Shown piece by piece: positions 20,909-34,921 of a stretch of DNA of 34,921 nt. The notes under the pieces were generated by a model. The model saw only the letters and a list, made by a program, of their open reading frames with translations. It was not told the DNA's origin and searched no databases. A program made the position numbers and the translations under genes. The stretch is from positions 1 to 34,921 of IMG/VR virus record IMGVR_UViG_3300049810_001362; one strand, 5' to 3'. How positions within the stretch are numbered: position 1 is the first letter of the stretch; each line of letters opens with the position of its first letter. Origin of the DNA: a virus.

Positions 20909-20929
20909 AACAGCAGGATGGTATAAACT

Positions 20930-21544
20930 ATGACAGATAAATTAAACGAACAAAGCGGTGTGCTACTACAAGGTCACATCAAAATACATAATCCAGAAAC
21001 TGGCGAAGTTATTATAGACAAGCGTAACGCTATTCATTATGAAAATATGAGTATTAGTTTAGCTGAAAGTTTAGGCAATGCTGGCACAGGTTGGATATAT
21101 GAAATGGGGTTTGGAAATGGCGGAACTAGCGTTGATCCTACAGGTATTATTACATATCTAACACCAAATTCAACTGGTACTAATGCAAGTTTGTACAACG
21201 AAACATTTACAAAGATTGTAGATGATAGAAGTGTTAACAATTTAGATCCTGCTAGAAATAAAATTGAAACACGTCATGTAAGCGGCACAAACTATACTGA
21301 TATCTTAGTAACATGTTTATTAGATTATGGTGAACCTACAGGACAAGATGCTTTTGATACAGCAGCAGATCAAAATAGTTTATATGTATTTGATGAATTA
21401 GGATTAAGAGCATACAGTGCATCAGGAACTGGCAGATTACTAACACATGTTATTTTCCATCCTGTACAAAAGTCACTTAATAGGCTTATACAAATAGATT
21501 ATACAGTTAGAGTACAAAGTTTAACTGGTTTTAACGAAGGATAA
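20930..21544 (+). CDS. Virion structural protein, probable baseplate component (gp8 position)
   Basis: A 204-residue protein with no signal peptide or membrane segment. It begins with a polar stretch and a short beta pair (GVLLQGHIKIHNPETGEVII), then a helix leading into a Gly-rich segment (residues about 50-66, ESLGNAGTGWIYEMGFGNGG). The rest is mixed beta, ending in LIQIDYTVRVQSLTGFNEG. Its place between the giant baseplate gene and the fibre genes, and its own late-promoter box, argue for a baseplate or tail role. Position corresponds to gp8 in T4 order, but it is shorter than T4 gp8 (334 aa) and I cannot show homology. An AGGA ribosome binding site lies 11 bases before the ATG. The next gene starts 4 bases after its stop. 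Confidence 0.55.
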   Translation: MTDKLNEQSGVLLQGHIKIHNPETGEVIIDKRNAIHYENMSISLAESLGNAGTGWIYEMGFGNGGTSVDPTGIITYLTPNSTGTNASLYNETFTKIVDDRSVNNLDPARNKIETRHVSGTNYTDILVTCLLDYGEPTGQDAFDTAADQNSLYVFDELGLRAYSASGTGRLLTHVIFHPVQKSLNRLIQIDYTVRVQSLTGFNEG

Positions 21545-21548
21545 TTAG

Positions 21549-23645
21549 ATGGCATATACGATTAATTTTACAAATAGTGCTGAAAAAGATCCTATTGTTA
21601 TTGAAGATGGTACAATTAATAACACAACAAGCCTAAGTTTTCCAGGAAGAAATTCAACTGGCTATGGCGCTGTTATTGCTGAAGACTTATTACGCTTATT
21701 AGAAAATTTTGCAAGTCCAACTGAACCTAGTAATTCTATACAAGGTCAGCTTTGGTATAATAGTATTTCAGGACAATTATTAGTTTACGATGGCACTACT
21801 TGGATACCAAGTGGCGGCTTAGCTAAGAGTACATCTCAACCTGATCCGACAGATGCAACAGACGGTGATCTATGGGTTGACACTGCATCACAGCAATTAT
21901 ATTTGTTTTCAGGTTCTACTTGGGTATTAGTAGGTCCAGAATTTAGTCAAGGATTAACAACAGGTGCAAAACCTAGTAGTATTGTTGGACAAGATAATGT
22001 TGAATACACAGTAATTGAAATTCAAGTTAGTGCAAATATTGTTGCTATTGTTGCTTTTGACGACTTTGTTCCAAAAGCAACAGTGCAAGGCTTTACAGCA
22101 ATTAAGCCAGGCATTAACTTAGCAAACAGAGATACTGATGCTGACGGAGTAAACAATGTAAAATTCTATGGAGTTGCAGAACAAGCAGAAAATTTAATTG
22201 TAAATGATCTTGCTGTTCCAAGTGCAAACTTTTTAAGAGGAGATGTTGAATCAACATCTACTAATCCGTTAAACATTCAGAACAACACTGGTATTGCATA
22301 CGGCATTAACGGAGAAATGGGTATTGGCATTGAAGGAAGTGCTGGTATAATACAACATAATATTGAAGGATCAAATATTGATATGCGTGTGCGTAATGCA
22401 GGCGCAAGTAAAACAGTTCTTCGAGTTGATAGTAGTTTAAGAGTTGGTATTAATAACGAAGCACCCGACGAAGCATTAGATGTTACAGGGAATTTATTAA
22501 CAAGTGGAATAATTAGAACTAATGATGTAACCGAAAGTACAACTATAAGCAATGGAGCATTAATTGTAAAAGGCGGCATTGGCGTTGCTAAATCTTTAAA
22601 CATTGGCGAAAATCTTGTTGTACAAAAAGGTATTACTTTAGGTAATAATGATCTTACAGTTGATACAACTGAATCAGAACTTATTATGCCAGATTTAAAT
22701 AACACTCGTAATATTGGTAGTCCTACAAATAAATGGCGTAAAATGTATGCAACTACATTTATTGGATCTTTAGAAGGTTCAGTTAGTGGTAGTGTAAGTG
22801 GTAAATCAGGAAGTGCTGATAAACTTACAAGTTCTACAACATTTAGATTAACAGGCGATGTTGAAACTGTTGAAAACGTATTTGACGGACAAACAGGTGG
22901 AGCTGTAAAAGATTTTAATATATCAATTAAAAATACAATCATTTCAGGAAAACCACAAGTAACTGATAGTTTATCAAACGATGAATTTATTATTGATAGA
23001 ATTAGCGGATCTAGTACGGGTCTAAGACGTATATCAAGAGGAACATTATTTCAGAATATTGCAGGTCTTACACCTATTGGAAGTATTATGCCATTTGCAG
23101 GAAATATTGAACCTACAGCTACAGGTTGGTTCTTTTGTAATGGACAAGAACTAAGCCAAGGTGTATACAATACTTTATATCAACTAATTGGATTTACTTA
23201 TAAAGCACAAGGATTAGTAACAGCAGGAAATTTTGCTCTACCTGATCTAAGAGGAAGGTTCCCACTAGGATCATTAACTATGGGCGGCACAAATCCGGCA
23301 GTTGAAGTTCCAGATACTAGATCAAGAGACTCTAACTCAAGTGTATTAGGTGCTGTTGATGGAACAGACGATGTTACAATAGATGTTAATAATTTACCAG
23401 AACACGAGCATGATTTAAGAGCTGATAACGGTGTTCAATTTACAGCTATTAGAGCTGTTGACGGTAGAGGCGGAGATAAACCAGATGATGCATCATTAAG
23501 TACAATACAAACTGGTGCTGATCAATTATCCCAAACAATTGATAAAAGTGGTGGAATATTATCACCGACAGTAGGTGATGATTTAAATATAATGAACCCA
23601 TATCAAACAGTTAATTATATTATATACACAGGAGTAACATCATGA
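21549..23645 (+). CDS. Tail fibre/collar protein A with phage tail collar domain
   Basis: First of three paralogous fibre-like proteins. Residues 1 to about 190 form the shared N-terminal domain (IEDGTINNTTSLSF, LLENFA, QGQLWYNS, GDLWVDTASQQLYLFSGSTW), probably the attachment part. The middle is a repetitive beta shaft with an ALDVTGNLLTSG-type unit and an IVKGGIGVAKSLNIGENLVV segment, typical of trimeric fibres. Residues about 510-590 are a phage tail collar domain (GSIMPFAGN, GWFFCNGQELS, FALPDLRGRFPLG), as in T4 gp12 and many receptor-binding fibres. After this come a HEHD motif and a last strand ending in NYIIYTGVTS, the usual end of collar-domain fibres. The start has AAGGA 7 bases upstream. 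The stop overlaps the next ATG as ATGA. It may act as a short tail fibre or a baseplate adhesin. Confidence 0.8.
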   Translation: MAYTINFTNSAEKDPIVIEDGTINNTTSLSFPGRNSTGYGAVIAEDLLRLLENFASPTEPSNSIQGQLWYNSISGQLLVYDGTTWIPSGGLAKSTSQPDPTDATDGDLWVDTASQQLYLFSGSTWVLVGPEFSQGLTTGAKPSSIVGQDNVEYTVIEIQVSANIVAIVAFDDFVPKATVQGFTAIKPGINLANRDTDADGVNNVKFYGVAEQAENLIVNDLAVPSANFLRGDVESTSTNPLNIQNNTGIAYGINGEMGIGIEGSAGIIQHNIEGSNIDMRVRNAGASKTVLRVDSSLRVGINNEAPDEALDVTGNLLTSGIIRTNDVTESTTISNGALIVKGGIGVAKSLNIGENLVVQKGITLGNNDLTVDTTESELIMPDLNNTRNIGSPTNKWRKMYATTFIGSLEGSVSGSVSGKSGSADKLTSSTTFRLTGDVETVENVFDGQTGGAVKDFNISIKNTIISGKPQVTDSLSNDEFIIDRISGSSTGLRRISRGTLFQNIAGLTPIGSIMPFAGNIEPTATGWFFCNGQELSQGVYNTLYQLIGFTYKAQGLVTAGNFALPDLRGRFPLGSLTMGGTNPAVEVPDTRSRDSNSSVLGAVDGTDDVTIDVNNLPEHEHDLRADNGVQFTAIRAVDGRGGDKPDDASLSTIQTGADQLSQTIDKSGGILSPTVGDDLNIMNPYQTVNYIIYTGVTS

Positions 23646-25564
23646 GTTATAAACTAAACAAAACAGACGGCTCACTCCTAGTAGAATTACAAGATGGAGT
23701 AATTGATACTACCTCTTCAGATCTAACCCTTGTAGGAAGAAATTATAAAGGCTTTGGCGAATATATTAATGAAAACTTTATTAAATTAACAGAAAGTTTT
23801 GCAAGTACTAGTGCTCCTTCAAATGCAATACCAGGACAACTTTGGTACGATACTTCCGATCAGCGTTTAAAAATTTACAACGGAACAACATTTAGAATTG
23901 CAGGCGGCCCAATTATAAGTTCTTCACAACCTAACATGGTTGCAGGTGATTTATGGATTGATAATGAACAAAATAAATTATATTTTTATGATGGAACCGA
24001 TGTTGTTGCTGTAGGACCTAATTACACAGCTACACAAGGAAAAACTTTGTTAGAAGCTGTGACAATGATTGACACATCAGGACAAACTAGAGCAGTCCTA
24101 GCACAATATATACAAGGAAACTTAATTGGTATACATAGTGCAAAAGAATTTACACCGAGAACTGAAGATGTACTATTACCATATGCAGCAGGAAGAGTAA
24201 TCAAGGTAGGGTTTAATCCACTTTATACAGCAGATAATGGAGATAACATTGCTTTCCGTTGGAATGGAATTGCATCAACAGCAGAAAACTTAGTAGATGC
24301 TCAAGGTGTATCAGTTGCTAGTACTGACTTTGTTAGAAATAACGAAAGAGATAGTAGTAATGTTATTGTTGATCAAACAATGGACGGTGGATTATTTGTT
24401 AAAGGAGAATCTGGAGTAAAAGTTGGATACGGTGATACAGCATACGGACAATTTAAAACTACAGAAACAGATACAAAAACAGTTATTGATATTTTAAATC
24501 AAAATCAACCATTTGCAATCAGAAGAAAAGTTGGTTCGAATCAAATTGATGGGTTAACATTTGATACACTAAATGGACGTTTTGGTATTTTTCAAGACAC
24601 ACCAACAGTTGCATTAGATGTAACTGGAGATGCAAGAGTTACAGGCGACTTAACGATTGAAGGAAACATTGCAATCGGCGGCGCAAGCACAATTATTGAT
24701 TCAGCAGAGTTAAGAGTACAAGATCCGCAAATACAATTAGGAATTACTGATGATTCAACAGAATTAGACGATGCAGGAATCGACGGCGGCGGATTTGTTA
24801 TTAACAGCTTAAATGGTAGTAAAGACTTTATCTGGAAAAACTCAACAGGCAACTTTACATCCAATCAAAATATAGACTTAGAATTAGGAAAGTCTTTTAG
24901 AATTTCAAATGCAAATGTACTTACAGCGACAACATTAGGTAGCGGAGTTGTAAATTCTTCTTTACAAAATGTTGGTACACTAACATCTGTAACTGTAAGT
25001 GGTAATGCAGCAGTTGGAAGTATTAGTTCGCCAGGAGCATTAAATATTAGCTCTACAGGCGATATAACAGTAAACACACAAAAGATTACTGGAGTGGCTG
25101 CACCAACGGGTACAACTGACGTAGCAAATAAAGGTTATGTAGATACACAAATTGCATTTGAACCAATGTCTTTAGCATTAGATATTACAGGATTTGTATC
25201 ACCAAATGTACCCGGCGTAGGTGACGGACCAATAAACGATGTAAAAGCTGTTATAGAATCAGTATATCCTGCTTCAGCAGCAGCAAATGGAAAAGTTGCT
25301 AAAATACATTGTACATCATATGCGGCCAGTACAATTTCAGGAATTCAAATTACTGTATCTACTTCGCCAAATGCTACTGGGGTTTTACAAAAATCAACTA
25401 TTTCAGTTGATTCAGCAGGAACACAAAATGAATCAGTTATACAAGATATAGCATTCATTAATCCAGCTACAGGTACGGTGGCACTAGATCCATCGAGATT
25501 TACAATGACATTCACAATAACAGCAGGAGTGTGGACTTGGAATTCCACAATAGCATATCCGTAA
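23642..25564 (+). CDS. Tail fibre-like protein B
   Basis: Second paralogue (640 aa). The N-terminal domain matches those of the genes at 21549 and 25600 (LQDGVIDTTSSDLTLVGRNY, KLTESFA, PGQLWYDT, GDLWIDNEQNKLYFYDGT). The middle is a fibre shaft with an ALDVTGDARVTGDLTIEGNI unit, an RVQDPQIQLG segment and, near residue 498, the NKGYVD motif often found just before the last domain of phage fibres. The C-terminal 130 residues (from about EPMSLALDITGF) are a separate beta-rich, cysteine-poor domain unlike those of its two paralogues. AGGAG at 23630-23634 serves the ATG and lies inside the upstream gene. Translational coupling through ATGA with the collar-domain paralogue suggests the two are made together. 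Receptor specificity cannot be inferred. Confidence 0.75.
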   Translation: MSYKLNKTDGSLLVELQDGVIDTTSSDLTLVGRNYKGFGEYINENFIKLTESFASTSAPSNAIPGQLWYDTSDQRLKIYNGTTFRIAGGPIISSSQPNMVAGDLWIDNEQNKLYFYDGTDVVAVGPNYTATQGKTLLEAVTMIDTSGQTRAVLAQYIQGNLIGIHSAKEFTPRTEDVLLPYAAGRVIKVGFNPLYTADNGDNIAFRWNGIASTAENLVDAQGVSVASTDFVRNNERDSSNVIVDQTMDGGLFVKGESGVKVGYGDTAYGQFKTTETDTKTVIDILNQNQPFAIRRKVGSNQIDGLTFDTLNGRFGIFQDTPTVALDVTGDARVTGDLTIEGNIAIGGASTIIDSAELRVQDPQIQLGITDDSTELDDAGIDGGGFVINSLNGSKDFIWKNSTGNFTSNQNIDLELGKSFRISNANVLTATTLGSGVVNSSLQNVGTLTSVTVSGNAAVGSISSPGALNISSTGDITVNTQKITGVAAPTGTTDVANKGYVDTQIAFEPMSLALDITGFVSPNVPGVGDGPINDVKAVIESVYPASAAANGKVAKIHCTSYAASTISGIQITVSTSPNATGVLQKSTISVDSAGTQNESVIQDIAFINPATGTVALDPSRFTMTFTITAGVWTWNSTIAYP

Positions 25565-25570
25565 GGATCT

Positions 25571-25579
25571 GATAAATAC
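25571..25579 (+). promoter_or_regulatory. T4-type late promoter box GATAAATAC before the 25600 gene
   Basis: GATAAATAC lies in the 35-base gap between fibre genes B and C, 20 bases before the ATG, with an AACAAGGA ribosome binding site between. It is identical to the boxes at 2193 and 20900. Confidence 0.75.
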
Positions 25580-25599
25580 TTGTAACAAGGAACTGAAAC

Positions 25600-27108
25600 A
25601 TGGCGTACACAATAAACAAATATGATACTACCCAGCTTACAATAGTACAAGACGGTACTATTGATCAAACAACTGACATTAAGTTAGTTGGTAAGAATTA
25701 TGCAGGGTACGGTGAGATACAAAACGAAAACTTTGTATTTCTTTTAGAAAACTTTGCAGGAGCAAATCAACCACCAAGGGCTATACAAGGCCAAATATGG
25801 TTTGATACAGCAAATAGCAAATTAAAATTTTATGACGGTGGCAAATGGCGCACAACAGGCGGCGCAGAAATTAGTGCTACAGCACCAGCAGGTTTATCAA
25901 CTGGTGATTTTTGGTGGGATACAACTAACCAACAGTTATATGCATACAACGGCACAGATTTTGTACTCGTAGGTCCACAAGATGCAGGTACAGGCATTAC
26001 ACAAATGCAAAGTAAAACAGTACTTGATACTGGATCAATTAGTAGAAGTGTAATTGCTGCAACAGTAAACGACGATGTACAATTCTTAATAAGCCCAGTA
26101 GAATTTACTATCGACTCAACTGATGCACAAAACGCAATTTCAGGATTTGATATAGTACGCCAGGGTGTTACACTTAAAAATACGCAAAGTGCAACAGCTG
26201 GAGTAACAAGCACAGATCATCAATTCCACGGTACAGCATCTAACGCATTAAAACTTAACGGAGTTGATGCAAGTAATTATGTTACAGCTAACCCAGGTGC
26301 GCCAACAGTATTCACAGAAATAACAAACTTCCAAACTGATGCAGGTATTGCAATTGGTGCAGGATTAGATTTAAAATTGTTTATCGAGAATGATAACGAA
26401 GGTGTTATACAAAATTCACAAGGTGACGAAATTAAATTTAGAGTAAAAGAATCCGGCGGAGCAACCGTAAATGTTGTAGATATCCTTCCAGGAAATATTT
26501 TACCTGGTATACAAAGTACAGGTCCAACTGTTTATAGAAGTATAGACATAGGTTCTACAGCAGCACCATTTGATGATGTATATGCCGGAAATTATTATGG
26601 AATTTCAGAAAAAGCAAGTGCTCTTATTGTAGGTGGAAATACTAGAGTAGGATCAGTAGACTCAAGCGGAACAGGCACCGGCAATACTATAGCTGTAAGA
26701 GACGGATCAGGAAACTTAAATGCAGTATTATTTCAAGGCACAGCAACAAGTGCAAGATATGCTGACTTAGCAGAAGTTTATGTAACTGATCAAGATTATC
26801 CAACAGGAACAGCAATGTGTGTCGGCGGCGAAGCAGAAGCTACAGCATGTAAAGCAAGTTGCATGGCAATTGGAGTTATATCTGCAGAGCCTGCATATTT
26901 AATGAATAGCGATTGTGACGGTCAAGCAATTGGTCTTAAAGGGCGTGTTCCAGTAAGAGTAAAAGGAACTGTAACAAAAGGACAGCCTGTTTATGCATGG
27001 GAAGATGGTGTTTGTACTACTATAGCATCAACAGCATTAGTAGGAATTGCTCTAGAATCAAGCCAGGACGAGTCAGAAAAATTAATCGAGTGTGTCTTAA
27101 AAGTATAA
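25600..27108 (+). CDS. Tail fibre-like protein C with a Cys-bearing C-terminal domain
   Basis: Third paralogue (502 aa). The shared N-terminal domain is clear (VQDGTIDQTTDIKLVGKNY, LLENFAG, QGQIWFDTANSKLKFYDGG, GDFWWDTTNQQLYAYNGTDF). A short beta shaft follows, with an IDIGSTAAPFDDVYAGNYYG segment. The C-terminal 120 residues begin at ATSARYADLAEVYVTDQDY and continue with GTAMCVGG, several Cys residues (ATACKASC), a PAYLMNSDCDG segment and GRVPVRVKGTVTKGQPVYAW. That pattern is widespread at the ends of phage fibre and appendage proteins and resembles domains linked to self-cleavage or capping; I cannot show cleavage here. It is the shortest of the three and has its own late-promoter box. The next gene's late-promoter box overlaps its last codon and stop. 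Confidence 0.75.
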   Translation: MAYTINKYDTTQLTIVQDGTIDQTTDIKLVGKNYAGYGEIQNENFVFLLENFAGANQPPRAIQGQIWFDTANSKLKFYDGGKWRTTGGAEISATAPAGLSTGDFWWDTTNQQLYAYNGTDFVLVGPQDAGTGITQMQSKTVLDTGSISRSVIAATVNDDVQFLISPVEFTIDSTDAQNAISGFDIVRQGVTLKNTQSATAGVTSTDHQFHGTASNALKLNGVDASNYVTANPGAPTVFTEITNFQTDAGIAIGAGLDLKLFIENDNEGVIQNSQGDEIKFRVKESGGATVNVVDILPGNILPGIQSTGPTVYRSIDIGSTAAPFDDVYAGNYYGISEKASALIVGGNTRVGSVDSSGTGTGNTIAVRDGSGNLNAVLFQGTATSARYADLAEVYVTDQDYPTGTAMCVGGEAEATACKASCMAIGVISAEPAYLMNSDCDGQAIGLKGRVPVRVKGTVTKGQPVYAWEDGVCTTIASTALVGIALESSQDESEKLIECVLKV

Positions 27109-27111
27109 ATA
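27104..27111 (+). promoter_or_regulatory. Consensus T4 late promoter box TATAAATA before the 27139 gene
   Basis: TATAAATA, an exact match to the T4 late -10 box, overlaps the last codon and TAA stop of fibre gene C and lies 27 bases before the ATG at 27139. An AAGGA ribosome binding site lies 6 bases from that ATG. Confidence 0.75.
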
Positions 27112-27138
27112 AGTACGTAGTTTAAAAAAGGATGAAGA

Positions 27139-28050
27139 ATGGCTGTATCAGTAGGCTCAAGTATTAATGAAACACATTATACCACACTAAGAAGCGGTAT
27201 AAACACAGTAATGGGAACCCCAACAGGAAGCGGTAACGGTTCATCGGGATATAATGTTGGTATTTCAGCACCGTCGGTATCTGTAGGTTCAACAATTACA
27301 GCATCACAATGGAACAATTTAAGAGGTGATATTCGCAAAGCAAGCGCACACCAAACTAATAGTGCCGTAGCACTAACAACAGTTGATACAGACACAGGCA
27401 TTACAGCAGCAATACATAACGAATTTGAAACGGCATTATCTACAGTAACATCAAATAGATTTACAATGGCAACGGCACAAAGTACACTTAGTACAGCAAG
27501 AACAAAAAATAAATCAGGTGGATGGAATGGTACACAAATACATGATGTACAGTTAACCTGGGGAAGTGCAAACGCATTCAAAGCATTTTGGAATGCCGGC
27601 GGAGTGGTTAGTATTAATTCGTCTTTATCTTATACTGGTTCTGAAGCTAAAACACTAGATTGGAAAAGCCTAGTAAACGATGCTAAAAACGTAAGTATAA
27701 ACTATACAAGTGCATATGCAGACGGTGGCGGTAACCAAGGTACAATTACCAACACAGGTATGTATGATTTGAACACAAATGGCACTGAGGTAAAAATTTT
27801 CCAAGATGGCGGTACTAATCCGTACTCAGAAAACGACTACCAAATTTATATTAGATATATCACTAACGGAATAAGAGTACGTGTATTTTTCAGAGACGAT
27901 GATGCAGGCGACCAAACAGGAACTGGCGCACCTGTTGATGAACCCGTCCAAGGCACTCTAACAAGTGCTATTACTGTTAGACGTGCTACAGGCTCAAACG
28001 TTGAAGTTACATCACCTAGTGTAGCTACTGGCAGTTCAAATACTTTCTAA
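27139..28050 (+). CDS. Probable virion structural protein, function unknown
   Basis: A 303-residue protein rich in Ser, Thr, Gly and Asn, without Cys, signal peptide or membrane segment. The N-terminal third has a periodic helix/loop pattern (THYTTLRSGINTVMGTPTGS, then ITASQWNNLRGDIRKASAHQ) that I associate with appendage proteins of marine T4-like phages. A middle segment, AFKAFWNAGGVVSINSSLSY, leads into a beta-rich C-terminal half. It is the last gene of the late structural block, with its own TATAAATA box, and is followed by the accessory cassette. A role as a tail or decoration protein is likely from composition and context; I cannot name the family. Confidence 0.6.
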   Translation: MAVSVGSSINETHYTTLRSGINTVMGTPTGSGNGSSGYNVGISAPSVSVGSTITASQWNNLRGDIRKASAHQTNSAVALTTVDTDTGITAAIHNEFETALSTVTSNRFTMATAQSTLSTARTKNKSGGWNGTQIHDVQLTWGSANAFKAFWNAGGVVSINSSLSYTGSEAKTLDWKSLVNDAKNVSINYTSAYADGGGNQGTITNTGMYDLNTNGTEVKIFQDGGTNPYSENDYQIYIRYITNGIRVRVFFRDDDAGDQTGTGAPVDEPVQGTLTSAITVRRATGSNVEVTSPSVATGSSNTF

Positions 28051-28057
28051 TTAACTC

Positions 28058-28086
28058 TTGACAAACACTTAGTTTTAGTATATACT
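28058..28086 (+). promoter_or_regulatory. Sigma70-type promoter of the accessory cassette
   Basis: TTGACA at 28058-28063, a 17-base spacer, and TATACT at 28081-28086: a near-consensus bacterial housekeeping promoter and unlike the late boxes in the structural region. Predicted transcription start is near 28093, about 20 bases before the ATG at 28112. It would let the host polymerase transcribe the cassette early, independent of the late programme. Confidence 0.8.
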
Positions 28087-28100
28087 ATAACAGTATATAC
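28078..28100 (+). promoter_or_regulatory. Perfect 9+9 inverted repeat over the -10 box, likely operator
   Basis: GTATATACT (28078-28086), spacer ATAAC, AGTATATAC (28092-28100): the arms are exact reverse complements. The left arm covers the whole -10 hexamer and the right arm covers the expected transcription start, a classic layout for repression by a dimeric regulator. On transcripts reading through from upstream, the same repeat could fold into a hairpin next to the ribosome binding site at 28101-28106. It has no U-tract, so it is not a terminator. Confidence 0.65.
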
Positions 28101-28111
28101 AAGGAGATCCC

Positions 28112-28459
28112 ATGGATGAACGACTGGAAAAAGCTCTAGAATTTTCTAACTTTTTAGAAACACAAAACAACCAAAAACGTATTTTTTTAAAGCAGTATCA
28201 AGATAATCTTGTCCATTATACTAATGGGCATAAAATAACTGTTACTATGGATTTAATTAGTTTCTGCCAAAGTTTGCTAGAATTAGATCAAGGAGAAACA
28301 GTTTTGTTAGATGACAATAGTATTCCTTTTGATGTCAATAATCTAAAAGAATTTACAAGACAGTTATTAGGTGTCTATACTTTTGCATCTAGAAAATACT
28401 TATATGATTATAAAAAAATTAAAGACAACAGATCAGTTGAAGGATTAACTAGTCTATGA
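28112..28459 (+). CDS. Small acidic protein, first gene of the accessory cassette
   Basis: A 115-residue, mostly helical protein that I do not recognise. The N-terminal helix (residues 1-35) is charged and may be coiled coil. The middle contains a short beta segment (GHKITVTMDLISFCQ) and an acidic loop (ETVLLDDNSIPFDV), and the C-terminus has Tyr/Lys-rich helices (RKYLYDYKKIKDNRS). There is no membrane segment or helix-turn-helix that I can see. It has a strong AAGGAG ribosome binding site 5 bases before the ATG and lies directly behind the sigma70-like promoter and inverted repeat, so it should be the best expressed early product of the cassette. Its stop overlaps the next ATG as ATGA. It could be a regulator or accessory factor for the enzymes behind it, but nothing in the sequence shows which. 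Confidence 0.7.
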   Translation: MDERLEKALEFSNFLETQNNQKRIFLKQYQDNLVHYTNGHKITVTMDLISFCQSLLELDQGETVLLDDNSIPFDVNNLKEFTRQLLGVYTFASRKYLYDYKKIKDNRSVEGLTSL

Positions 28460-29307
28460 AAAAAGGCGTAGTTTTATTTGCTTTTAATAACAATACAATT
28501 GATTATGTAAAGCAAGCAATATATTGTGCAAAACGTATAAAAAAATATCTAGGGTTATCAGTACAACTAATAACTGATGACAAAGACCACCTAATTAAAA
28601 AATTTCCGTTTTATAAAAAATATATTGATGTAGTTACATATAGCCCTGCTCCTATTCCATCTAACAAAACATTTTATGATGGAATACATGGAAATCACGG
28701 CAAGTTAGATTGGAAAAATAGTGCAAGAGATAGTGCATTTGATCTTACAGTATTTGAACAAACATTAGTTCTTGATACTGATTTATTGATTAGTAATGAT
28801 AAATTACTAACTTGTTTTAACATGTCAGAAGATTTCATGATTGCTAAGAATTATCAATTAGTAAATACTAGTAAATCTTATAAAAGTTTTGATAGAATTA
28901 GTGATAATTCTGTACCAATGTATTGGGCGACAATAATTTACTTTACTAAGAGTTATACGTCAAAAACAGTATTTGATTTAGTAAAACATATTAAAGAAAA
29001 TTATAATTATTATAGATTAGTTTATAATATCATCGAAACAAAATTTAGAAATGATTTTGCTTTTAGTATTGCATTACACACAATGCGAGGGTTTGTAGAA
29101 GATAGTAACTGGCCTCTAGATATTCCTACTGATATGTGGGTATCTACTGATAAGGATGTACTAGTAGATGCAAACAATAGTAGTATAAAATTATTAGCAC
29201 AAAGAGATCATGATTATCTTGCTGTTAAGTTAGATGATGCTACTACTCATATTATGAACAAGTTTAGTTTAGACAAGTTTATTGATAAGGAGTTTGCTAA
29301 TGAGTAA
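28456..29307 (+). CDS. Glycosyltransferase-like protein (GT-A fold, DxD), copy 1
   Basis: A 283-residue protein with the layout of a retaining GT-A glycosyltransferase of the GT8-like type. The N-terminal strand and loop read GVVLFAFNNNTIDYVKQAI, then SVQLITDD, and the metal-binding DxD is D107-T-D109 in the strand FEQTLVLDTDLLI. The later part has an aromatic-rich segment (MYWATIIYFTKS) and a C-terminal WPLDIPTDMW. A role in sugar transfer is inferred; donor and acceptor are unknown. It shares the NNNTxDY(V/I)(K/R)QA start and overall plan with the next gene, so the two look like an old tandem duplication. There is no signal peptide, so it acts in the host cytoplasm. It overlaps the upstream gene by 4 bases and the downstream gene by 8. 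Confidence 0.65.
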   Translation: MKKGVVLFAFNNNTIDYVKQAIYCAKRIKKYLGLSVQLITDDKDHLIKKFPFYKKYIDVVTYSPAPIPSNKTFYDGIHGNHGKLDWKNSARDSAFDLTVFEQTLVLDTDLLISNDKLLTCFNMSEDFMIAKNYQLVNTSKSYKSFDRISDNSVPMYWATIIYFTKSYTSKTVFDLVKHIKENYNYYRLVYNIIETKFRNDFAFSIALHTMRGFVEDSNWPLDIPTDMWVSTDKDVLVDANNSSIKLLAQRDHDYLAVKLDDATTHIMNKFSLDKFIDKEFANE

Positions 29308-30127
29308 CGGCATTTGTCTTGTTGCACAAAATAATAATACAACAGATTATATTAGACAAGCGTATGCACTAGCGTTAAGTGTTCTTGCTAACAGTCCTAG
29401 AACCAATATAAGTTTAATTACTAACGACGAAGTACTTCCTGAGTATCAAAAGGTATTTGATAAAATTATACCTATACCTTGGGGCGATGGTGCTAATAAT
29501 AAACAATGGAAAATTGAAAATCGTTGGAAAGTTTACCACATAACACCTTATGAAAATACAGTTGTTATGGATGTAGATATGTTGGTGTTAGATAATATTA
29601 ATAAAGTTTGGCAAGATTTTACAAAATCACCTCCTTTATTATTTACAAAAAATGTTAAGACTTATCGAAACGAACTAATTACTTCTCGATATTATAGGAA
29701 AACATTTGATTCAAACGATTTGCCAAATGTATATACAGGACTATATCAATTTTCAAAATCAGAAAGTACACACGGATTTTTCGTATTGCTTGATATAGTA
29801 ATGAAACATTGGAGAGAATTTTACAAACAATATGCACCTAACGATTTTCAAGCCTGGTGTAGTGTTGATGTTAGTGCAGCAATAGCATTAAAAATATTAG
29901 ATATGCAAGGATATTGTTTAGATAATAGTACATTAGCGTTTACACATATGAAACCTCATTTACAAAATTTATATAATCCACCATCTAAATGGACAGAACT
30001 TCTAACTGTTGATTTTGGAAATAATGATATCATTATTAATGGATATAAACAATCGGGTGTATTGCATTACGTTGAAAATAGTTTTTTGTCAAATGATATA
30101 GTTAAGTGGCTAGAGGAGAAAATATAA
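29300..30127 (+). CDS. Glycosyltransferase-like protein (GT-A fold, DxD), copy 2
   Basis: A 275-residue paralogue of the preceding gene. Shared features are the start GICLVAQNNNTTDYIRQA, the strand NISLITND and a DxD motif D91-V-D93 (TVVMDVDMLVLDN). A Trp-rich segment (KQWKIENRWKVYHITPYE) before the DxD and NVYTGLYQFSKSE after it are consistent with a donor-binding pocket of GT8-like enzymes. The start is set at the ATG at 29300, which has AAGGAG 7 bases upstream. The longer frame opens with a TTG at 29282, inside the previous gene and without a ribosome binding site. The stop overlaps the next ATG by one base (TAATG). Substrate is unknown; divergence from copy 1 suggests a different acceptor or linkage. 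Confidence 0.65.
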   Translation: MSNGICLVAQNNNTTDYIRQAYALALSVLANSPRTNISLITNDEVLPEYQKVFDKIIPIPWGDGANNKQWKIENRWKVYHITPYENTVVMDVDMLVLDNINKVWQDFTKSPPLLFTKNVKTYRNELITSRYYRKTFDSNDLPNVYTGLYQFSKSESTHGFFVLLDIVMKHWREFYKQYAPNDFQAWCSVDVSAAIALKILDMQGYCLDNSTLAFTHMKPHLQNLYNPPSKWTELLTVDFGNNDIIINGYKQSGVLHYVENSFLSNDIVKWLEEKI

Positions 30128-30672
30128 TGTTTTACTTACACTATGACGAAGAAGGCAACATAACTTCAGTCTCTAATATTAAAGCAACAGTTGAAAAGTA
30201 TATCAAAATTGATAAAAAAACTTTTAATGAATTTAATAATGGCGAAAAAGCAATGTTTGATTACAAAGTAATTGAAAATGTTAAAACAAAAGGAAGTTAT
30301 CACATTGTTCCTATCAATATCGATGAAGAAGAATCTGTACATCATACAAATTTTGTAAATAAAGCAGATATATTAGAATCAGGAATCCAGATTGTACAAG
30401 AAAAAGACGGATGGGTCGTAAATAATTTTATAGATGATGTAAATTGTACAGCATTGTCAATAGGCGAAGATTATCTAAAAGAATATTATATTGTAGATAG
30501 CACTAACAGATTTATATTATTAGATAAGTTTAGTATTAATTTAAAAGAATTTGCAACACAAAAAGAAATAAAAATTAGTAATTGCTCGTCGCATAAAACA
30601 GTATCGGTTTTAACTAATAGTAGTCATATACCGCATGTACATACAATAGGATATAAACATGAAAGTAATTGA
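30127..30672 (+). CDS. Unknown cytoplasmic protein within the glycosyltransferase cassette
   Basis: A 181-residue protein that I do not recognise. It starts MFYLHYDEEGNITSVSNI, continues with mixed alpha/beta segments (KADILESGIQIVQEKDGWVV), and ends in a Ser/His-rich tail (NCSSHKTVSVLTNSSHIPHV). There is no membrane segment or catalytic signature. The start is placed at the ATG at 30127, with AGGAG 8 bases upstream and coupled to the previous stop; the frame could be extended to a GTG at 30106, but this is inside the previous gene and poorly placed. The last 14 bases overlap the next gene. Operon context suggests a partner of the flanking GT-A proteins. The His/Cys-rich tail could bind metal; that is speculation. 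Confidence 0.65.
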   Translation: MFYLHYDEEGNITSVSNIKATVEKYIKIDKKTFNEFNNGEKAMFDYKVIENVKTKGSYHIVPINIDEEESVHHTNFVNKADILESGIQIVQEKDGWVVNNFIDDVNCTALSIGEDYLKEYYIVDSTNRFILLDKFSINLKEFATQKEIKISNCSSHKTVSVLTNSSHIPHVHTIGYKHESN

Positions 30673-31549
30673 TCAAGATATAATATTTTTAAGTTATGAT
30701 GAACCTAACGCTGAAGAAAATTATGCAGACTTACTAGCCAAAGTCCCATGGGCTAAACGTGTACATGGAGTAGAAGGTTCAGATGCTGCACACAAAGCAT
30801 GTGCTGATCTAAGCGAAACTGAAAATTTTATTACTATTGATGGTGATACAATTATTGATCCTAAGTTTTTAGAAGTAGATCTTGATTTGAATAAACTAAA
30901 TGCAACAAAAGATTATCAATTTAGCTGGGCTGGCAAGATAGATGTAAATGGACTAATGTACGGTAACGGTAGTATAAAAATGTGGACAAGAAATTTTGTA
31001 AAAAATATGAAAACACATGAAAATACAGACGGCTCCGATGACACAAGTATAGAATTTTGTTATTTTGATAATTATCTTCAACTAAATGAAAATTTTTCGA
31101 CTAGTATTATTAGTTCAACTCCTCAACAGGCTTGGAGAGCAGGATTCCGCGAAGGTGTAAAAATGTCGCTAAACAGAGGATCGGTAATAAAAGATTTAGA
31201 AAAGTTATGGTGGCAAAATTATAACAGACTGTTAGTTTGGACTATGGTTGGTGCAGATATAAAAAACGGATTATGGACTATATACGGCGCTAGAGAAGGT
31301 GTTTTTAAAACAATGTGTACAGATTGGGATCACATACAGGTAAGAGACTTCACATATTTAAATAACCTGTGGAATGAAAAACAAAAAACACAAATAACAG
31401 GTGATGACTTATTAGAAGCTATAGAAGTTCTAGGAGCTTCGTTAGTAAACGAACTTAAACTACCAATAGGACAAATGCCTTTAGATGAGCAACAGAGTAA
31501 ATTTTTTAAGAAAGTTTACACTCAGCCTGCAAGAAATATAAAATTATAA
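30659..31549 (+). CDS. GT-A-like glycosyltransferase-family protein (DGD motif), third in the cassette
   Basis: A 296-residue protein with a short GT-A-like core. The N-terminal strand IIFLSYDEPNAEENYADLL is followed by a helix and then the metal-binding type motif D61-G-D63 in FITIDGDTIIDP, the usual place of DxD in GT2-like folds. Further segments are YQFSWAGKIDVNGLMYGNGS, an aromatic SIEFCYFDNY loop and a Trp-rich helix pair (LEKLWWQNYNRLLVWTMVGA). It differs from the two upstream GT8-like paralogues in layout. AGGA lies 7 bases before the ATG, which is inside the preceding gene. Glycosyl transfer is inferred from fold and motif only; similar phage proteins are often left as hypothetical. 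It is followed after 1 base by the radical SAM gene. Confidence 0.55.
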   Translation: MKVIDQDIIFLSYDEPNAEENYADLLAKVPWAKRVHGVEGSDAAHKACADLSETENFITIDGDTIIDPKFLEVDLDLNKLNATKDYQFSWAGKIDVNGLMYGNGSIKMWTRNFVKNMKTHENTDGSDDTSIEFCYFDNYLQLNENFSTSIISSTPQQAWRAGFREGVKMSLNRGSVIKDLEKLWWQNYNRLLVWTMVGADIKNGLWTIYGAREGVFKTMCTDWDHIQVRDFTYLNNLWNEKQKTQITGDDLLEAIEVLGASLVNELKLPIGQMPLDEQQSKFFKKVYTQPARNIKL

Positions 31550-31550
31550 A

Positions 31551-32936
31551 ATGAAAACATCTGATGATCTATATCATTTCCGAGATAATGTTTTAAATGA
31601 AGTAAGTCCGAGTTTTTGTACAGCAAAATGGAAGCAGGTAACTTTACATTTACATAGTGGACAAACACACAGTTGTCATCATCCCGTTCCGCATAAAATT
31701 CCTTTAGATGAAATTGCTGATAATCCAAGTGCATTACATAATACTAAATTTAAAAAACTTCAGCGTAAAGAAATGTTAGAAGGAAAACGTCCTAGTGAAT
31801 GTGACTATTGCTGGCGAGTAGAAGATTGTAACCCTGAAGCTCTTAGCGATAGAGTATATAAATCTGCAGAACCATGGGCTAGAAATTTTATTGATGAAAT
31901 TATATCTAAGCCTTGGGATGACGATGTTGATCCTAGTTACTTAGAAGTTAGTTTTAGTCATGTGTGTAATTTAAAATGTAGTTATTGTAGTCCTCAGGTT
32001 AGTAGTAAATGGGTAGAAGAAATACAACAGCATGGTGCATATAAAACTAGTAGTAACTTTAATGATTTAGATTGGATTAAAAAGCAAGGAACTATGCCTA
32101 TACCAAATAGAGAACATAATCCTTATGTTGAAGCTTTTTGGAAATGGTGGCCTAGTGTATCGTCTAAATTACACACGTTTAGAATTACTGGTGGCGAACC
32201 ATTATTATCAAAAGATACTTTTAAAATTCTTGATTATTTGATAGAAAATCCCTTGCCAAATTTAGAATTTTCTATCAATAGTAATATGTGCTTACCTGAT
32301 GCTGTAATAGATAAATTTATTGAAAAAATTAAAATAATCTGTAATGAAGGCAAAGTTAAAAATTTTAAAATATTTACAAGTGCCGAAGCACATGGTACAC
32401 AAGCTGAATATATTAGATACGGACTTAATTATAATAAATGGATTGCAACTATTAGACGTATATTAACTGAGGTGCCTAACTGTACTTTTACTTGTATGAG
32501 TACCTATAATTTATTAAGCATGTTTTCTTTTGATAAATTTTTACAGGATATACTATCTATTAAAACTGAATTTGGAGGACTAGGAAAGCCAACACCGATT
32601 ATACTAGATGTTCCTTATTTAAGATGGCCCGATCATCAAACTATAAAAATTGCCCCAAAAGAATGGACAAAAAACATTGCTAAACAGTTAGAATTCATTC
32701 GTAGTAACTTAGAAAACGTAAATGTAAAAAACGGGTTTCATAAATGGGAAGGTGACAAGTTTAGTAGATTACTAGAAGTGTTTGATAACGAAAACTTAAC
32801 ACAACAACAACTTGATATATTTAGAAAAGATTTTGCTATATTTGTTGATGAGCATGATCGTAGACGTTCTACAAATTTTTTAAAAACTTTTCCTGAAATG
32901 GAACAATTCTATCAAGATTGTAAACTAATTACGTAA
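31551..32936 (+). CDS. Radical SAM protein, twitch-domain-like
   Basis: A 461-residue radical S-adenosylmethionine enzyme. The [4Fe-4S] cluster motif is C139-NLK-C143-SY-C146 (SFSHVCNLKCSYC), and the SAM-binding GGEP motif is at residues 214-217 (FRITGGEPLLS). Five further Cys lie N-terminal to the core (C23, C42, C84, C87, C93), three of them in CDYCWRVEDC; they could bind a second cluster, as in SPASM/twitch enzymes. Such proteins are common in marine phages but the reaction is not known to me. It lies 1 base after the third GT-A-like gene and has no clear ribosome binding site, so translation probably depends on coupling. It may modify a sugar or a peptide substrate of the cassette. The stop codon lies in a palindrome shared with the converging gene. 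Confidence 0.85.
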   Translation: MKTSDDLYHFRDNVLNEVSPSFCTAKWKQVTLHLHSGQTHSCHHPVPHKIPLDEIADNPSALHNTKFKKLQRKEMLEGKRPSECDYCWRVEDCNPEALSDRVYKSAEPWARNFIDEIISKPWDDDVDPSYLEVSFSHVCNLKCSYCSPQVSSKWVEEIQQHGAYKTSSNFNDLDWIKKQGTMPIPNREHNPYVEAFWKWWPSVSSKLHTFRITGGEPLLSKDTFKILDYLIENPLPNLEFSINSNMCLPDAVIDKFIEKIKIICNEGKVKNFKIFTSAEAHGTQAEYIRYGLNYNKWIATIRRILTEVPNCTFTCMSTYNLLSMFSFDKFLQDILSIKTEFGGLGKPTPIILDVPYLRWPDHQTIKIAPKEWTKNIAKQLEFIRSNLENVNVKNGFHKWEGDKFSRLLEVFDNENLTQQQLDIFRKDFAIFVDEHDRRRSTNFLKTFPEMEQFYQDCKLIT

Positions 32937-32940
32937 TTAG
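32925..32940. other. 16-bp perfect palindrome containing both convergent stop codons
   Basis: CTAATTACGTAATTAG is its own reverse complement. The TAA of the + strand gene (32934-32936) and the TAA of the - strand gene (32929-32931) lie in it symmetrically, and the genes overlap by 8 bases. There is no loop or flanking U-tract, so it is a poor terminator; it could be a protein-binding site, or simply a result of two TAA-containing gene ends meeting. Confidence 0.6.
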
Positions 32941-34116
32941 ATATTCTTTATTCTTGTTAAATTGTTTTCTTAAGGTCTTGTAATTGTGTTCTAGTACACT
33001 ACGCATTTCTTGTAACATTATTTTTAGATTGTCGATTGGTATATTATTAATATCATTTATGATTTTATATATCATTTCTAATCTTTTATTGTGGTTAGTT
33101 TCATTATCATAACTTTCGTCCCACCATTTATTAAATGTTTGAAATCCTAAACTTTGTAAATGTGAAATTGTACCTACTGGACCTACCATAATAAACGGCC
33201 TATGTGCTACAATAGGTTTGATTGTTTTTTCTGTTAGATTTATCATATTAGATGCATATCTAGTTTCAGTTACAACATCAACAAATGCTTTTGAAACACC
33301 TTGAATAGTATTTCTTTGCTTATCACTTTCTATATCTACTACATCACTATTTTTAGCGTCCCATAAGATTGGAGTATTTTCTAATTCGTAATGACTTGTT
33401 AATATTTTCTCTACAGTTTGCGGACTAAAGTTTGCAAGAGGCAATGTTTTATTATTAAGTAATTGTTTAGTAGTACATAAGTTGTTTAAACTTAACACAG
33501 TATCAAAGTCTTTTATTAACAAACCTATTATGTAACGATGGTATTCAAAACGAAGGTTAAAACAAGATATTTTTTTGTCAAAGATATATCTATTATTATC
33601 GTTTACAAAATCATCTTTAGTATACATATTTGATGCAATGCTTGTAAAATAATAGTCAAAGTAATCAATTTTTAAGTTATAGTTTTTTGCTATAATAAAT
33701 GAGTCTTTTTCACAATGATAAATTTTATATTTACATTTTGTTTTAGATAAAATTCTTGAAATAATATCTAATTCGTAGCTACGTACTTCGTCGGGAATAG
33801 TTTCTATTGGATAAGTTTCTAGCATATTAAAATTATTTGTATTTGAATATAACCTAAGCACATCTTCCATAAAGAAATATATTTTTTCAATAGAATTTTT
33901 TCTTATAAATTTAATGATATCTTTTTCGTTTGTTTGTGTACATCCTGCAAATAAAATTATAACAATCTCTTGCTTAGTAGGTTTGATAACTTTTTTAAGT
34001 TTATTTAATAACCTATCTTCCCATTGCGGCCTAATAGATTTAAGTTTAGTTCTTTGGTTTCTATTACCACTTGTAAAGTAAATATTATTATTATGATAAA
34101 TTTTTAAATGGGCCAT
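32929..34116 (-). CDS. Unknown protein with glycosyltransferase-like C-terminal motif
   Basis: A 395-residue, Lys/Asn/Ile-rich protein without a signal peptide. The N-terminal half has alternating strands and helices (EIVIILFAGCTQ, IEKIYFFMEDVLRLY, CFNLRFEYHRYIIGLL). Near residues 287-335 is the most telling part: FVDVVTETRY, NLTEKTIKPIVAHRPFIMVG, LQSLGFQTFNKWWDESYD. The TEKT/K-P-I-x(4)-PF-I-x-(V)-G order recalls the acceptor/donor segment of GT10 fucosyltransferases and exostosin-type GT47 enzymes, where a conserved Glu-Lys precedes a G-x-P loop. I recognise the same C-terminal pattern from other marine phage proteins of unassigned function. The ATG overlaps the stop of the oxygenase gene by one base. 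A glycosyltransferase role is an inference; the N-terminal half gives no clue. Confidence 0.6.
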   Translation of the reverse strand: MAHLKIYHNNNIYFTSGNRNQRTKLKSIRPQWEDRLLNKLKKVIKPTKQEIVIILFAGCTQTNEKDIIKFIRKNSIEKIYFFMEDVLRLYSNTNNFNMLETYPIETIPDEVRSYELDIISRILSKTKCKYKIYHCEKDSFIIAKNYNLKIDYFDYYFTSIASNMYTKDDFVNDNNRYIFDKKISCFNLRFEYHRYIIGLLIKDFDTVLSLNNLCTTKQLLNNKTLPLANFSPQTVEKILTSHYELENTPILWDAKNSDVVDIESDKQRNTIQGVSKAFVDVVTETRYASNMINLTEKTIKPIVAHRPFIMVGPVGTISHLQSLGFQTFNKWWDESYDNETNHNKRLEMIYKIINDINNIPIDNLKIMLQEMRSVLEHNYKTLRKQFNKNKEYLIT

Positions 34117-34610
34117 TAATTAACGCCAGTAATTTGTAAAGTATATCTATCTTCAATGCCAATATTTGCAGCAAAGTGCGGTACGCTATGTGTCCACATA
34201 CAATAGTCGCCAGCTTTCCAATTAAATACCGGAAATCCGTCTACTTCAAAATAATGTCCAGATTTCCAGTTTTCTAAAAACACAATTGCTCTTACTACAT
34301 CTTTAATATTCTTCTTGAATATTTTAGTATATGTTGAGTAGTGATCAACATGAGTAGGAATAATATTATTTGTTTTCATTTTATAAAATGAATACCCACA
34401 ATCTTTCATATTTAGATCTTTGCTTATTTGTTTAGTCCATTCTGGTATATAGTTTTTTCCGCTATATAATTCCCCGCCGAATGTCATGCCGTTGTATACG
34501 CCAGTTTCCCATTTATCTTCTTCTTGTAAATTTAATGGTTGTCTAGTGTATTCAAATGACTTAATTTCATTAATGTCTATGTTTAAATTTATATGTCCTA
34601 ATTTATACAT
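34116..34610 (-). CDS. 2-oxoglutarate/Fe(II)-dependent oxygenase
   Basis: A 164-residue non-haem iron oxygenase of the compact prolyl-hydroxylase-like type common in marine T4-like phages. Iron ligands are H87-x-D89 (PTHVDHYSTY) and H145 (THSVPHFAANIG); R155 (DRYTLQITG) is placed to bind the 2-oxoglutarate carboxylate. A VVRAIVFLENWKSGHYFEVD strand pair lies between, as expected for the jelly-roll core. The start is set at the ATG ending at 34610, preceded by AGGGGA just upstream and 2 bases after the stop of the amidinotransferase gene. A longer frame opens with TTG at 34643 but lies inside that gene. It likely hydroxylates a small molecule, sugar or peptide; the substrate is unknown. Confidence 0.8.
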   Translation of the reverse strand: MYKLGHINLNIDINEIKSFEYTRQPLNLQEEDKWETGVYNGMTFGGELYSGKNYIPEWTKQISKDLNMKDCGYSFYKMKTNNIIPTHVDHYSTYTKIFKKNIKDVVRAIVFLENWKSGHYFEVDGFPVFNWKAGDYCMWTHSVPHFAANIGIEDRYTLQITGVN

Positions 34611-34612
34611 AT

Positions 34613-34921
34613 CTATCCCCTGTGTAAATCTAGTGTGGTGCAATGATGTCCGCCCCCGAGTGTTCTTGAATGAGCAAATGGTACTGTGTAACTTAGTACT
34701 CCATTTGCTCTCAGTGCTTGCTCTAGTTTAGGACAGTCATCAATAACTGCCAAGTCTGGACGAATCATAAAGAAGTTTAACAAAATATAATTACTTGCAA
34801 ATGCTTCTCCTGTAAAACTTTTCTGTGTTAGATCTTTGTCACCTAACCAAATAACTTCCCAGTCTTTAAAACAGAGAGGTAATGATTTCTTTGTAACACG
34901 ATCTTTATTAACTACAACAAG
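34613..34921 (-). CDS. Amidinotransferase family protein, C-terminal part (cut by window edge)
   Basis: An open frame of 102 residues enters from the right edge and ends in TAG; the start is outside. It matches the C-terminus of glycine/inosamine-type amidinotransferases in the guanidino-group-modifying superfamily, which move an amidino group from arginine to an amine through a Cys intermediate. Visible features are a strand-helix unit FASNYILLNFFMIRPDLAVI, a helix (LEQALRANGV) and the hallmark HSRTLGGGHHCTTLDLHRG. The Cys, nine residues from the end, is in the place of the catalytic nucleophile. The stop lies 2 bases before the oxygenase ATG, so these - strand genes form one operon. A related deiminase or hydrolase is possible; the fragment lacks the other catalytic residues. 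Confidence 0.8.
   Translation of the reverse strand, partial: LVVVNKDRVTKKSLPLCFKDWEVIWLGDKDLTQKSFTGEAFASNYILLNFFMIRPDLAVIDDCPKLEQALRANGVLSYTVPFAHSRTLGGGHHCTTLDLHRG

Follow-up and report, generated by a model that had tools for sequence, protein, structure and literature searches.

A fixed core of predicted glycosyltransferases and a come-and-go amidinotransferase block behind phage fibre genes, possibly for a guanidino-bearing glycan

The complete IMG/VR record IMGVR_UViG_3300049810_001362 (34,921 bases, here called the window) ends in a cassette of enzyme genes, which starts 61 bases behind the last of five fibre-like open reading frames (ORFs). The cassette consists of two units, a fixed core of six genes on the plus strand and a minus-strand block that comes and goes among related phages and encodes a predicted StrB1-type amidinotransferase. 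The plus run (28112–32936) and the minus run (32929–34921) are convergent with an 8-base overlap. Neighbours in the plus run overlap or lie 1 base apart, and the genes of the minus run overlap as well. We read the two units as a putative machinery for a glycan with a guanidino residue, whose target would most likely be the fibres, and give this reading a probability of about 0.4.

Viral contigs were searched for relatives of six proteins of the window, and also of the complete amidinotransferase and of a shortened DegT-type aminotransferase (mini-DegT) encoded just beyond the window; up to 80 relatives were kept for each. These were the best 80 of 524 relatives for the radical S-adenosylmethionine (SAM) protein, of 115 for GTc and of at least 587 for mini-DegT. 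ORFs were called mechanically and searched with profiles. The viral set, from which L001, L205, L206, L207–L286 and L367 were excluded, holds 284 loci, 177 of them non-redundant; L numbers denote individual loci.

The core comprises two related glycosyltransferase (GT) genes (GTa and GTb), a third candidate GT gene (GTc), a radical SAM gene, and the conserved small genes o115 and o188, which were missing from the list in a preliminary description of this DNA. Of 77 non-redundant loci that carry a GTa/b gene, 59 have the complete order o115-GTa-GTb-o188-GTc-radical SAM, where a match to any one of three related profiles was counted as radical SAM. A GTc-type gene lies close behind GTa/b in all 77 loci, o115 stands immediately ahead of the GT pair in 72, and the o188 family is present in 69. 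The radical SAM protein exceeds about 383 amino acids (aa) and fits the twitch profile best in 69 loci. A tblastn search of 50,697 cultured phage records gave no match for GTa and GTc (E 0.01), the core radical SAM protein (1e-5) or o115 (0.001).

The minus-strand block (block 2) encodes a GT-B-fold-like protein (X395), a putative 2-oxoglutarate (2OG) oxygenase and the amidinotransferase, and runs on past the window end. Downstream sequence of at least 7 kb is available for 58 of the 77 core loci, the window itself not being counted. Of these, 11 hold both the amidinotransferase and the 2OG gene, 45 hold neither, and each gene stands alone in one locus, which is L193 for the amidinotransferase. 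A downstream amidinotransferase is thus absent from 46 of these 58 loci, or from 47 if L193, with a gene of another subfamily, is counted. Where a StrB1-type gene is present, the minus-strand order X395-2OG-amidinotransferase-DegT is seen in 11 of 12 non-redundant core loci, the window's phage being represented by L287. Several of the ordered loci have insertions (e.g., SGNH, or X395 in L292), and the order in L060 differs.

The preliminary description had joined all these enzymes into one pathway, and had named independent occurrence of the genes in relatives as one observation that would speak against it. Co-occurrence of the same set holds within the core and within block 2, but not between the halves. 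Because the halves occur independently in relatives, we speak of one core and one come-and-go block, and a single indivisible pathway was rejected, since the core occurs without block 2. The guanidino-bearing group suggested at the same time keeps its support for half of the genes, namely those of block 2, which also travel together in other contigs; the core half is separable.

The gain or loss of the block can be followed in L085, which is 88.6% identical in DNA to positions 20659–32441 of the window and has the same core, with block 2 absent. Behind its core L085 carries a minus-strand run of a carbamoyltransferase, a radical SAM protein, three ORFs of 243–262 aa and a DegT protein; L101 has the same run and L166 begins likewise until its stretch ends. 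An amidinotransferase was found in none of the records of L085, L086, L101, L166 and L168, which may be fragments. The carbamoyltransferase is present in these five and in the near-identical contig described below (6/6), the amidinotransferase in the latter only (1/6). There the carbamoyltransferase lies farther downstream and in opposite orientation. Because of this distribution, sequence comparison points to gain or loss of block 2 and to a carbamoyl run that was moved or turned, rather than to a clean exchange. A swap of a guanidino block for a carbamoyl block was considered and rejected, as the near-identical contig holds the carbamoyltransferase too, elsewhere and reversed.

The 2OG oxygenase, the amidinotransferase, mini-DegT, a dehydrogenase of the nucleoside diphosphate (NDP)-sugar type and the GT-B protein also occur together in contigs of other make-up. 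Within 6 kb of the StrB1-type amidinotransferase in 33 non-redundant viral loci (scores above 140 bits, a second subfamily being excluded and the window's phage being counted twice, as window and L287), a 2OG gene was found in 29, the dehydrogenase in 27, X395 in 24 and mini-DegT in 24. Some of these genes are present by construction, since L195–L204 were fetched by the 2OG protein and L287–L366 by mini-DegT. In samples free of this bias the 2OG gene is present in 11 of 11 core loci besides the window and in six of eight loci fetched by the amidinotransferase (L172–L175 and L177–L180), the exceptions being L173, which is short, and L180, whose 2OG gene lies slightly more than 6 kb away. Sequence distances parallel those of the amidinotransferase, with Spearman coefficients of 0.80 for DegT, 0.47 for the dehydrogenase, 0.46 for the 2OG protein and 0.26 for X395. 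Twenty records carry block 2 in a stretch without a GTa gene. No GTa/b match was found anywhere in 18 of them, including records of 202,913 and 82,703 bases; most of these records are fragments.

The region downstream of the core differs between loci and is very variable, as would be expected if a mobile hot-spot beside the fibres merely gathered cargo of no common function. We consider this very improbable, as the order of the core is fixed, and the genes of block 2 stay together, and show correlated distances, in contigs of different composition.

A bacterial origin of block 2 was also considered and rejected. Of 81 amidinotransferase loci found in bacterial assemblies 80 were kept, and among the 75 with an amidinotransferase ORF a 2OG gene stands beside it in one, L207; no bacterial donor was found in this set. 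L207 (DLXM01000205.1), filed under a metagenome-assembled genome of Bacteroidetes, holds X395, the 2OG gene, the amidinotransferase and, by eye, a fibre-like ORF, and is probably a phage contig that was binned wrongly. Two further neighbours were seen in block 2 contigs: GTP cyclohydrolase I in L172 (by Pfam) and in L174, L175, L177 and L180 (by eye), and, also by eye, a gene resembling an ABC-transporter binding protein behind the amidinotransferase in L172, L174, L177 and L180.

The amidinotransferase gene is cut by the record end, and the window holds its C-terminal 102 aa with the GGGHHC motif (34613–34921, minus strand). A longer contig, 99.97% identical to the window, carries the whole protein of 290 aa (L002:13063–13935). 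StrB1 (inosamine-phosphate amidinotransferase, PDB 1bwd) is its best match among solved structures, with E-values of 7.5e-92 for the profile and 1.5e-41 for the single whole sequence, and ranks ahead of HsvA, SxtG and AGAT in both comparisons. Residues D131, H177 and C282, invariant in 15 aligned rows, align with D179, H227 and C332 of 1bwd as counted in the alignments, which we take to be the catalytic residues of StrB1. The phage enzyme is shorter (290 aa against 348) and lacks a stretch ahead of the DAAN motif. Of 38 family hits with lengths of 270–360 aa, 29 keep a stricter two-motif pattern; the misses include a second subfamily. From these comparisons the enzyme appears closest to StrB1 of streptidine synthesis and is predicted to transfer an amidino group.

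An AGAT-like glycine amidinotransferase is less likely, as StrB1 scores far higher (145.6 vs 62.2 bits for the single sequence). The same scores bear on the idea that the cassette makes a small diffusible metabolite, a guanidinoacetate- or aminoglycoside-like compound for host metabolism or warfare. The amidinotransferase family does include AGAT and SxtG, and the island of contig G001 also has a carbamoyltransferase, a nitroreductase, TauD, radical SAM and sulfotransferase genes. With an enzyme nearer to StrB1 than to AGAT, a glycosyltransferase-like protein near it in 24 of 33 loci and fibre genes adjoining the core, we regard a diffusible product as improbable.

This second subfamily of amidinotransferase-like proteins, which is distant and has a different flank ahead of the active-site HC, was seen in L193, L201, L298, L300, L305, L311, L315, L317, L344, L351, L352 and L359. 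Ten of these 12 loci were fetched by mini-DegT, so the nearness of DegT is there by construction.

In the near-identical contig the minus strand continues from the amidinotransferase with an SGNH hydrolase and the 195-aa DegT protein. The plus strand then encodes an NDP-sugar dehydrogenase-like protein, a paralogue of GTc, an SGNH-like protein, a protein of 283 aa, a SPASM-like protein, two radical SAM proteins and a DegT protein of full length. Genes farther along, assigned partly by eye, code for a nitroreductase and look-alikes of it, a NodU-type carbamoyltransferase, TauD, radical SAM, 2OG-like, sulfotransferase and desaturase proteins, and the gene set extends about 25 kb past the window end to a fibre-like end (by eye). 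In L369 four adjacent look-alike paralogues of the nitroreductase, one of them confirmed by Pfam, lie at 14576–17510 on the minus strand of the island continuation, and ORFs of similar size adjoin the carbamoyltransferase in L085 and L101.

Mini-DegT is closest to sugar aminotransferases (WbpE, 8.6e-20). It has 195 aa, and the family median is 200 aa (in a subset of 150–260 aa), compared with about 360–400 aa for full-length proteins. K108 and D84 are invariant in 12 aligned rows, and the pattern of the lysine that binds pyridoxal phosphate (PLP) is kept in 88 of 89 proteins. We therefore describe mini-DegT as a putative DegT/DnrJ/EryC1/StrS aminotransferase of shortened form with the catalytic lysine kept. 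Proteins of this kind, of ∼200 aa with the PLP lysine, are common in viral contigs (at least 587 relatives), and are often preceded by a pair of ORFs, one of about 400 and the other of about 315 aa (L287–L366). The GGxC pattern of the dehydrogenase is kept in 30 of 36 proteins.

The 2OG-Fe(II) oxygenase-like protein (34116–34643, minus strand, 175 aa) resembles Asp/Arg hydroxylases. Its match to PF05118 (E 0.003) stays below the cut-off, and five of 23 aligned members match this family. H98, D100 and H156 of the HVD...H...R motif are invariant in the 23 aligned rows, and HxD...H is kept in 36 of 36 proteins.

X395 (32929–34116, minus strand, 395 aa) was modelled with AlphaFold2 at a mean pLDDT of 75.6. 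In VIA comparisons the model gave Z-scores of 12.9 with T4 beta-glucosyltransferase (5.2 Å), 11.5 with a Helicobacter pylori fucosyltransferase (4.1 Å) and 11.3 with a glycosyltransferase of phage HY126 (4.2 Å). These comparisons, like those for GTa, rescored the ranking of Foldseek, and other families may lie outside the lists. The best Foldseek E-value for X395 was 1.5e-3, with none at or below 0.001, and no glycosyltransferase Pfam family was found in 29 members of the family. With moderate confidence, the model thus suggests a protein of the GT-B fold.

T4 AGT is also among the top structural neighbours of X395, and these neighbours would suit hypermodification of DNA, in which X395 and the amidinotransferase decorate bases in the manner of the T4 glucosyl-hydroxymethylcytosine or of archaeosine-like amidines. 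PTPS (QueD-like) exceeds its cut-off in five of 12 related records, and GTP cyclohydrolase I adjoins the amidinotransferase in L172. However, QueC exceeds its cut-off in none of the 12 records (three weak partial matches) and Thymidylat_synt in one of 12 of a partly different set, the records of both sets being possibly fragments, and the PTPS gene in record G002 is at least about 84 kb away from the cassette. The amidinotransferase itself matches StrB1/AGAT enzymes, and to our knowledge these are not of the archaeosine kind. DNA as the target seems quite unlikely to us.

The core genes start with o115 (28112–28459, plus strand as the whole core, 115 aa), which has no family match. GTa (28456–29307, 283 aa) carries a DTD motif at residues 107–109 (LDTD). 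Its AlphaFold2 model (mean pLDDT 93.2) aligns with glycogenin 3t7n over 210 residues (VIA Z 15.8, 3.7 Å) and matches GlyE in Foldseek (E 2e-7), and the GTa profile matches glycogenin at E 8e-4. GTb (29282–30127, 281 aa) is a paralogue with 21% identity and a DVD motif (MDVD), and the two form one family with 306 members common to both. Among the proteins of this family in non-redundant viral loci the first aspartate of the motif (D107) is kept in 135 of 142 and the second (D109) in all 142. We assign both to GT8-like GT-A glycosyltransferases, GTa on the strength of its predicted fold and GTb by homology.

The next gene, o188 (30106–30672, 188 aa), diverges fast and has no convincing family match. 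GTc (30659–31549, 296 aa) has a conserved DGD motif (IDGD), and both aspartates of DGD (or DAD) are kept in 124 of 125 proteins of the GTc/d family in non-redundant viral loci. One of 30 members matched Glycos_transf_2 weakly (E 9e-4), and the profile gave no relevant match in the PDB. By its motif GTc is probably a GT-A glycosyltransferase of a family separate from GTa/b. Membership in the GTa family was rejected after a profile comparison with a probability of 0.6%. The last core gene (31551–32936) encodes a radical SAM protein with a twitch domain, with the motifs CNLKCSYC and GGEP, and matches NCBIfam NF033640 (N_Twi_rSAM) at E 4.7e-103 with 345 bits against a cut-off of 170. All 75 radical SAM proteins beside a GTc gene keep CxxxCxxC, and 74 of them keep GGEP.

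These results largely bear out the families named in the preliminary description. The reading frames of the enzyme genes do lie side by side in two convergent runs beside fibre genes, and the motifs it listed (DxD/DGD, CxxxCxxC with GGEP, HxD...H...R, GGGHHC) are all present in the translations, those that we counted being conserved beyond chance. The checks it had proposed, profile searches and structure prediction, were run, with GTa and X395 modelled, and gave the families mostly as called. The radical SAM protein is of the twitch type and above the cut-off of its family, the amidinotransferase is of the StrB1 type with its catalytic residues kept, and the oxygenase call agrees with the Asp/Arg-hydroxylase-like match and the invariant HxD and H, with a Pfam score below the cut-off. 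Of three proposed GT-A-like proteins, GTa and GTb are backed by fold model and homology, while GTc is called by motif only. For X395, which had been called GT10/47-like, the GT-B fold was retained and a fucosyltransferase is among the nearest structures, but the GT10 score (Z 11.5) is level with T4 beta-glucosyltransferase (12.9) and the HY126 enzyme (11.3).

We infer the reaction order, the substrates and the target from the gene content, the modelled folds of GTa and X395, the catalytic residues and the co-travel of the genes. In streptidine synthesis the dehydrogenase StrI and the DegT-type StsC act before StrB1, and we read block 2 as a putative maker of a guanidino sugar or cyclitol because dehydrogenase, aminotransferase and amidinotransferase repeat this order of steps. 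The NDP-sugar dehydrogenase-like enzyme would oxidise a sugar or cyclitol, mini-DegT would add an amino group, and the StrB1-type amidinotransferase would use arginine as donor to convert this to a guanidino group. The 2OG oxygenase may hydroxylate the guanidino residue or its precursor, and X395 may then transfer the residue. The core, with two GT8-like GTs, a third probable GT-A, a radical SAM protein and two small proteins, could build a short glycan, change one of its residues by radical chemistry and so supply the acceptor. Fibre proteins in the cytoplasm would most likely be the target, giving the phage a variable glycan coat, with a glycan of the host surface as a close second.

In 22 ORFs (19 distinct) of the cassette and its nearer continuation no hydrophobic stretch of the transmembrane type was found. 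This fits a cytoplasmic protein acceptor, and with fibre genes as neighbours and, as judged by eye, a fibre-like sequence closing the island at its other end, the fibres are slightly favoured over the host surface. In the competing account the O-chain or capsule of the host is built or altered so that other phages cannot adsorb or new virions do not stick to debris. Accessible sections of PMC7029224 propose an O-chain role for a pelagimyophage cluster with fibres, GT8, UDP-glucose dehydrogenase and radical SAM genes, and the same enzyme classes are present here. Besides the absence of transmembrane-type stretches, the place of the core among the fibre genes, which would be expected to be expressed late, argues against host remodelling. 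Neither a flippase nor a polymerase nor a lipid-carrier enzyme was noticed, though no family search was aimed at them. Host-surface remodelling seems to us only somewhat less likely than the fibre reading.

Several observations weigh against the guanidino-glycan reading, one of them being the presence of genes by construction noted above. Two of the 20 block 2 records (L288 and L291) do carry a GTa/b pair, which makes the units less separate. Among the best 80 mini-DegT loci seven hold a StrB1-type amidinotransferase, and ten more hold the second subfamily. The Fisher p of 6e-10 for the pair of amidinotransferase and 2OG genes is overstated, as loci of shared ancestry are not independent evidence. 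No UDP-binding C-terminal domain was recognised in the dehydrogenase, family resemblance does not single out a sugar or a cyclitol as substrate, and mini-DegT, with about half of a normal DegT protein missing, may serve another step. X395 is as similar to DNA glucosyltransferases as it is to fucosyltransferases. A fatty-acid desaturase, of a membrane-type family, is encoded in the far part of the island (L369) outside the membrane scan, and no kinase was noticed, nor a lipid carrier or flippase, in data to which no family search for them was applied. Finally, similar clusters have been assigned to host O-chain modification (PMC7029224, sections available).

The window upstream of the cassette encodes, in order, a gp5-like protein, gp25-like and gp6-like baseplate proteins, a protein of 5048 aa and five fibre-like proteins. 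The gp names are presumptive, that of gp6 being supported by tblastn as well. The closest cultured relatives of the gp6-like protein are those of the jumbo myophages SCTP-2, Atu_ph07 and Phosso (34.6–37.8% identity). The window's phage, which we take for a marine myophage, is probably large, because a related record with the same core (L292) has 381,886 bases. In SCTP-2, the closest cultured baseplate relative, no cassette is annotated in 229000–275000, where nearly all genes are hypothetical. The five fibre or tail-appendage-like ORFs (204, 698, 640, 502 and 303 aa; 20930–28050, plus strand) lie directly 5' of the cassette; the 698-aa ORF has a Phage Tail Collar domain (6.2e-16), and ORFs of similar size precede the core in most related loci that extend that far. 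The single ORF of 5048 aa (5758–20904) lies between the gp6-like gene and the fibres, and a Pfam search with residues 1–1081 gave no family at E 0.01. The corresponding place in pelagimyophages is occupied by VrlC according to accessible parts of PMC7029224; the host recognition cluster of those phages lies between VrlC and gp14. A promoter-like TTGACA-17-TATACT (28058–28086, plus strand) stands 25 bases before o115 with 11 of 12 matches; it was the best of 46 sites in a sigma-70 scan, where 46.0 were expected by chance, and is a weak candidate.

If the reading is true, guanidino groups made by a StrB1-type enzyme would add to phage-made glycans a chemistry of which the searched papers give no report. 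The cassette would also be a case of near-identical phages that gain or lose a tailoring block, and would give a testable account of the radical SAM, 2OG and sugar genes that fill the fibre islands of marine phages; a short DegT form that keeps the catalytic lysine is described as well. A broader claim is that large marine phages use a self-contained streptidine-like cassette to place a guanidino sugar on their fibres, and vary the coat by taking up, dropping and relocating guanidino, carbamoyl and other blocks downstream of a fixed core, much like serotype switching, but on the virus. We think this joint claim rather unlikely, and rated it slightly lower because the swap of carbamoyl for guanidino blocks had fallen.

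Two elements of this picture are already known, namely fibre islands of variable content that hold GT8, UDP-glucose dehydrogenase and radical SAM genes, and an exchangeable cluster of radical SAM and amidinotransferase genes. In the open-licence PMC papers searched we found no description of the fixed six-gene core or of a StrB1-type block with mini-DegT, and the portions seen of PMC12619734, PMC11360552 (on guanidinoacetate methyltransferase) and PMC6884629 describe neither. The host recognition cluster of pelagimyophages and cyanomyophages is a hypervariable island with fibres behind a baseplate gene, GT8, UDP-glucose 6-dehydrogenase and radical SAM cassettes (PMC7029224, in part). An island with fibres, GTs and variable content is shared here. 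In contrast, a fixed order like that of our core is not described in the accessible sections of that paper, whose main text is without the words amidinotransferase, carbamoyl, DegT, aminotransferase and guanidin, and the gp6-like protein of the window has its closest cultured relatives in jumbo myophages.

Campylobacter phages CP220 and CPt10 have an exchangeable cluster with radical SAM genes around an amidinotransferase (PMC2853527, in part). An amidinotransferase block that comes and goes, together with radical SAM genes, is seen here too. The partners differ, as their module has about five radical SAM genes and is replaceable as a unit, their amidinotransferase is a distant relative (24–25% identity), and no glycosyltransferase, 2OG oxygenase or DegT gene is annotated within 15 kb of it in CPt10. 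Among cultured phages, Synechococcus phage S-SCSM2R (PQ898602) differs from the window in its gene order, with all genes on one strand, and in GTa, GTc and o115, which are unmatched there by tblastn; yet it carries a mini-DegT (195 aa), a radical SAM protein, a GT, a 2OG oxygenase and an amidinotransferase in one run, together with further GTs.

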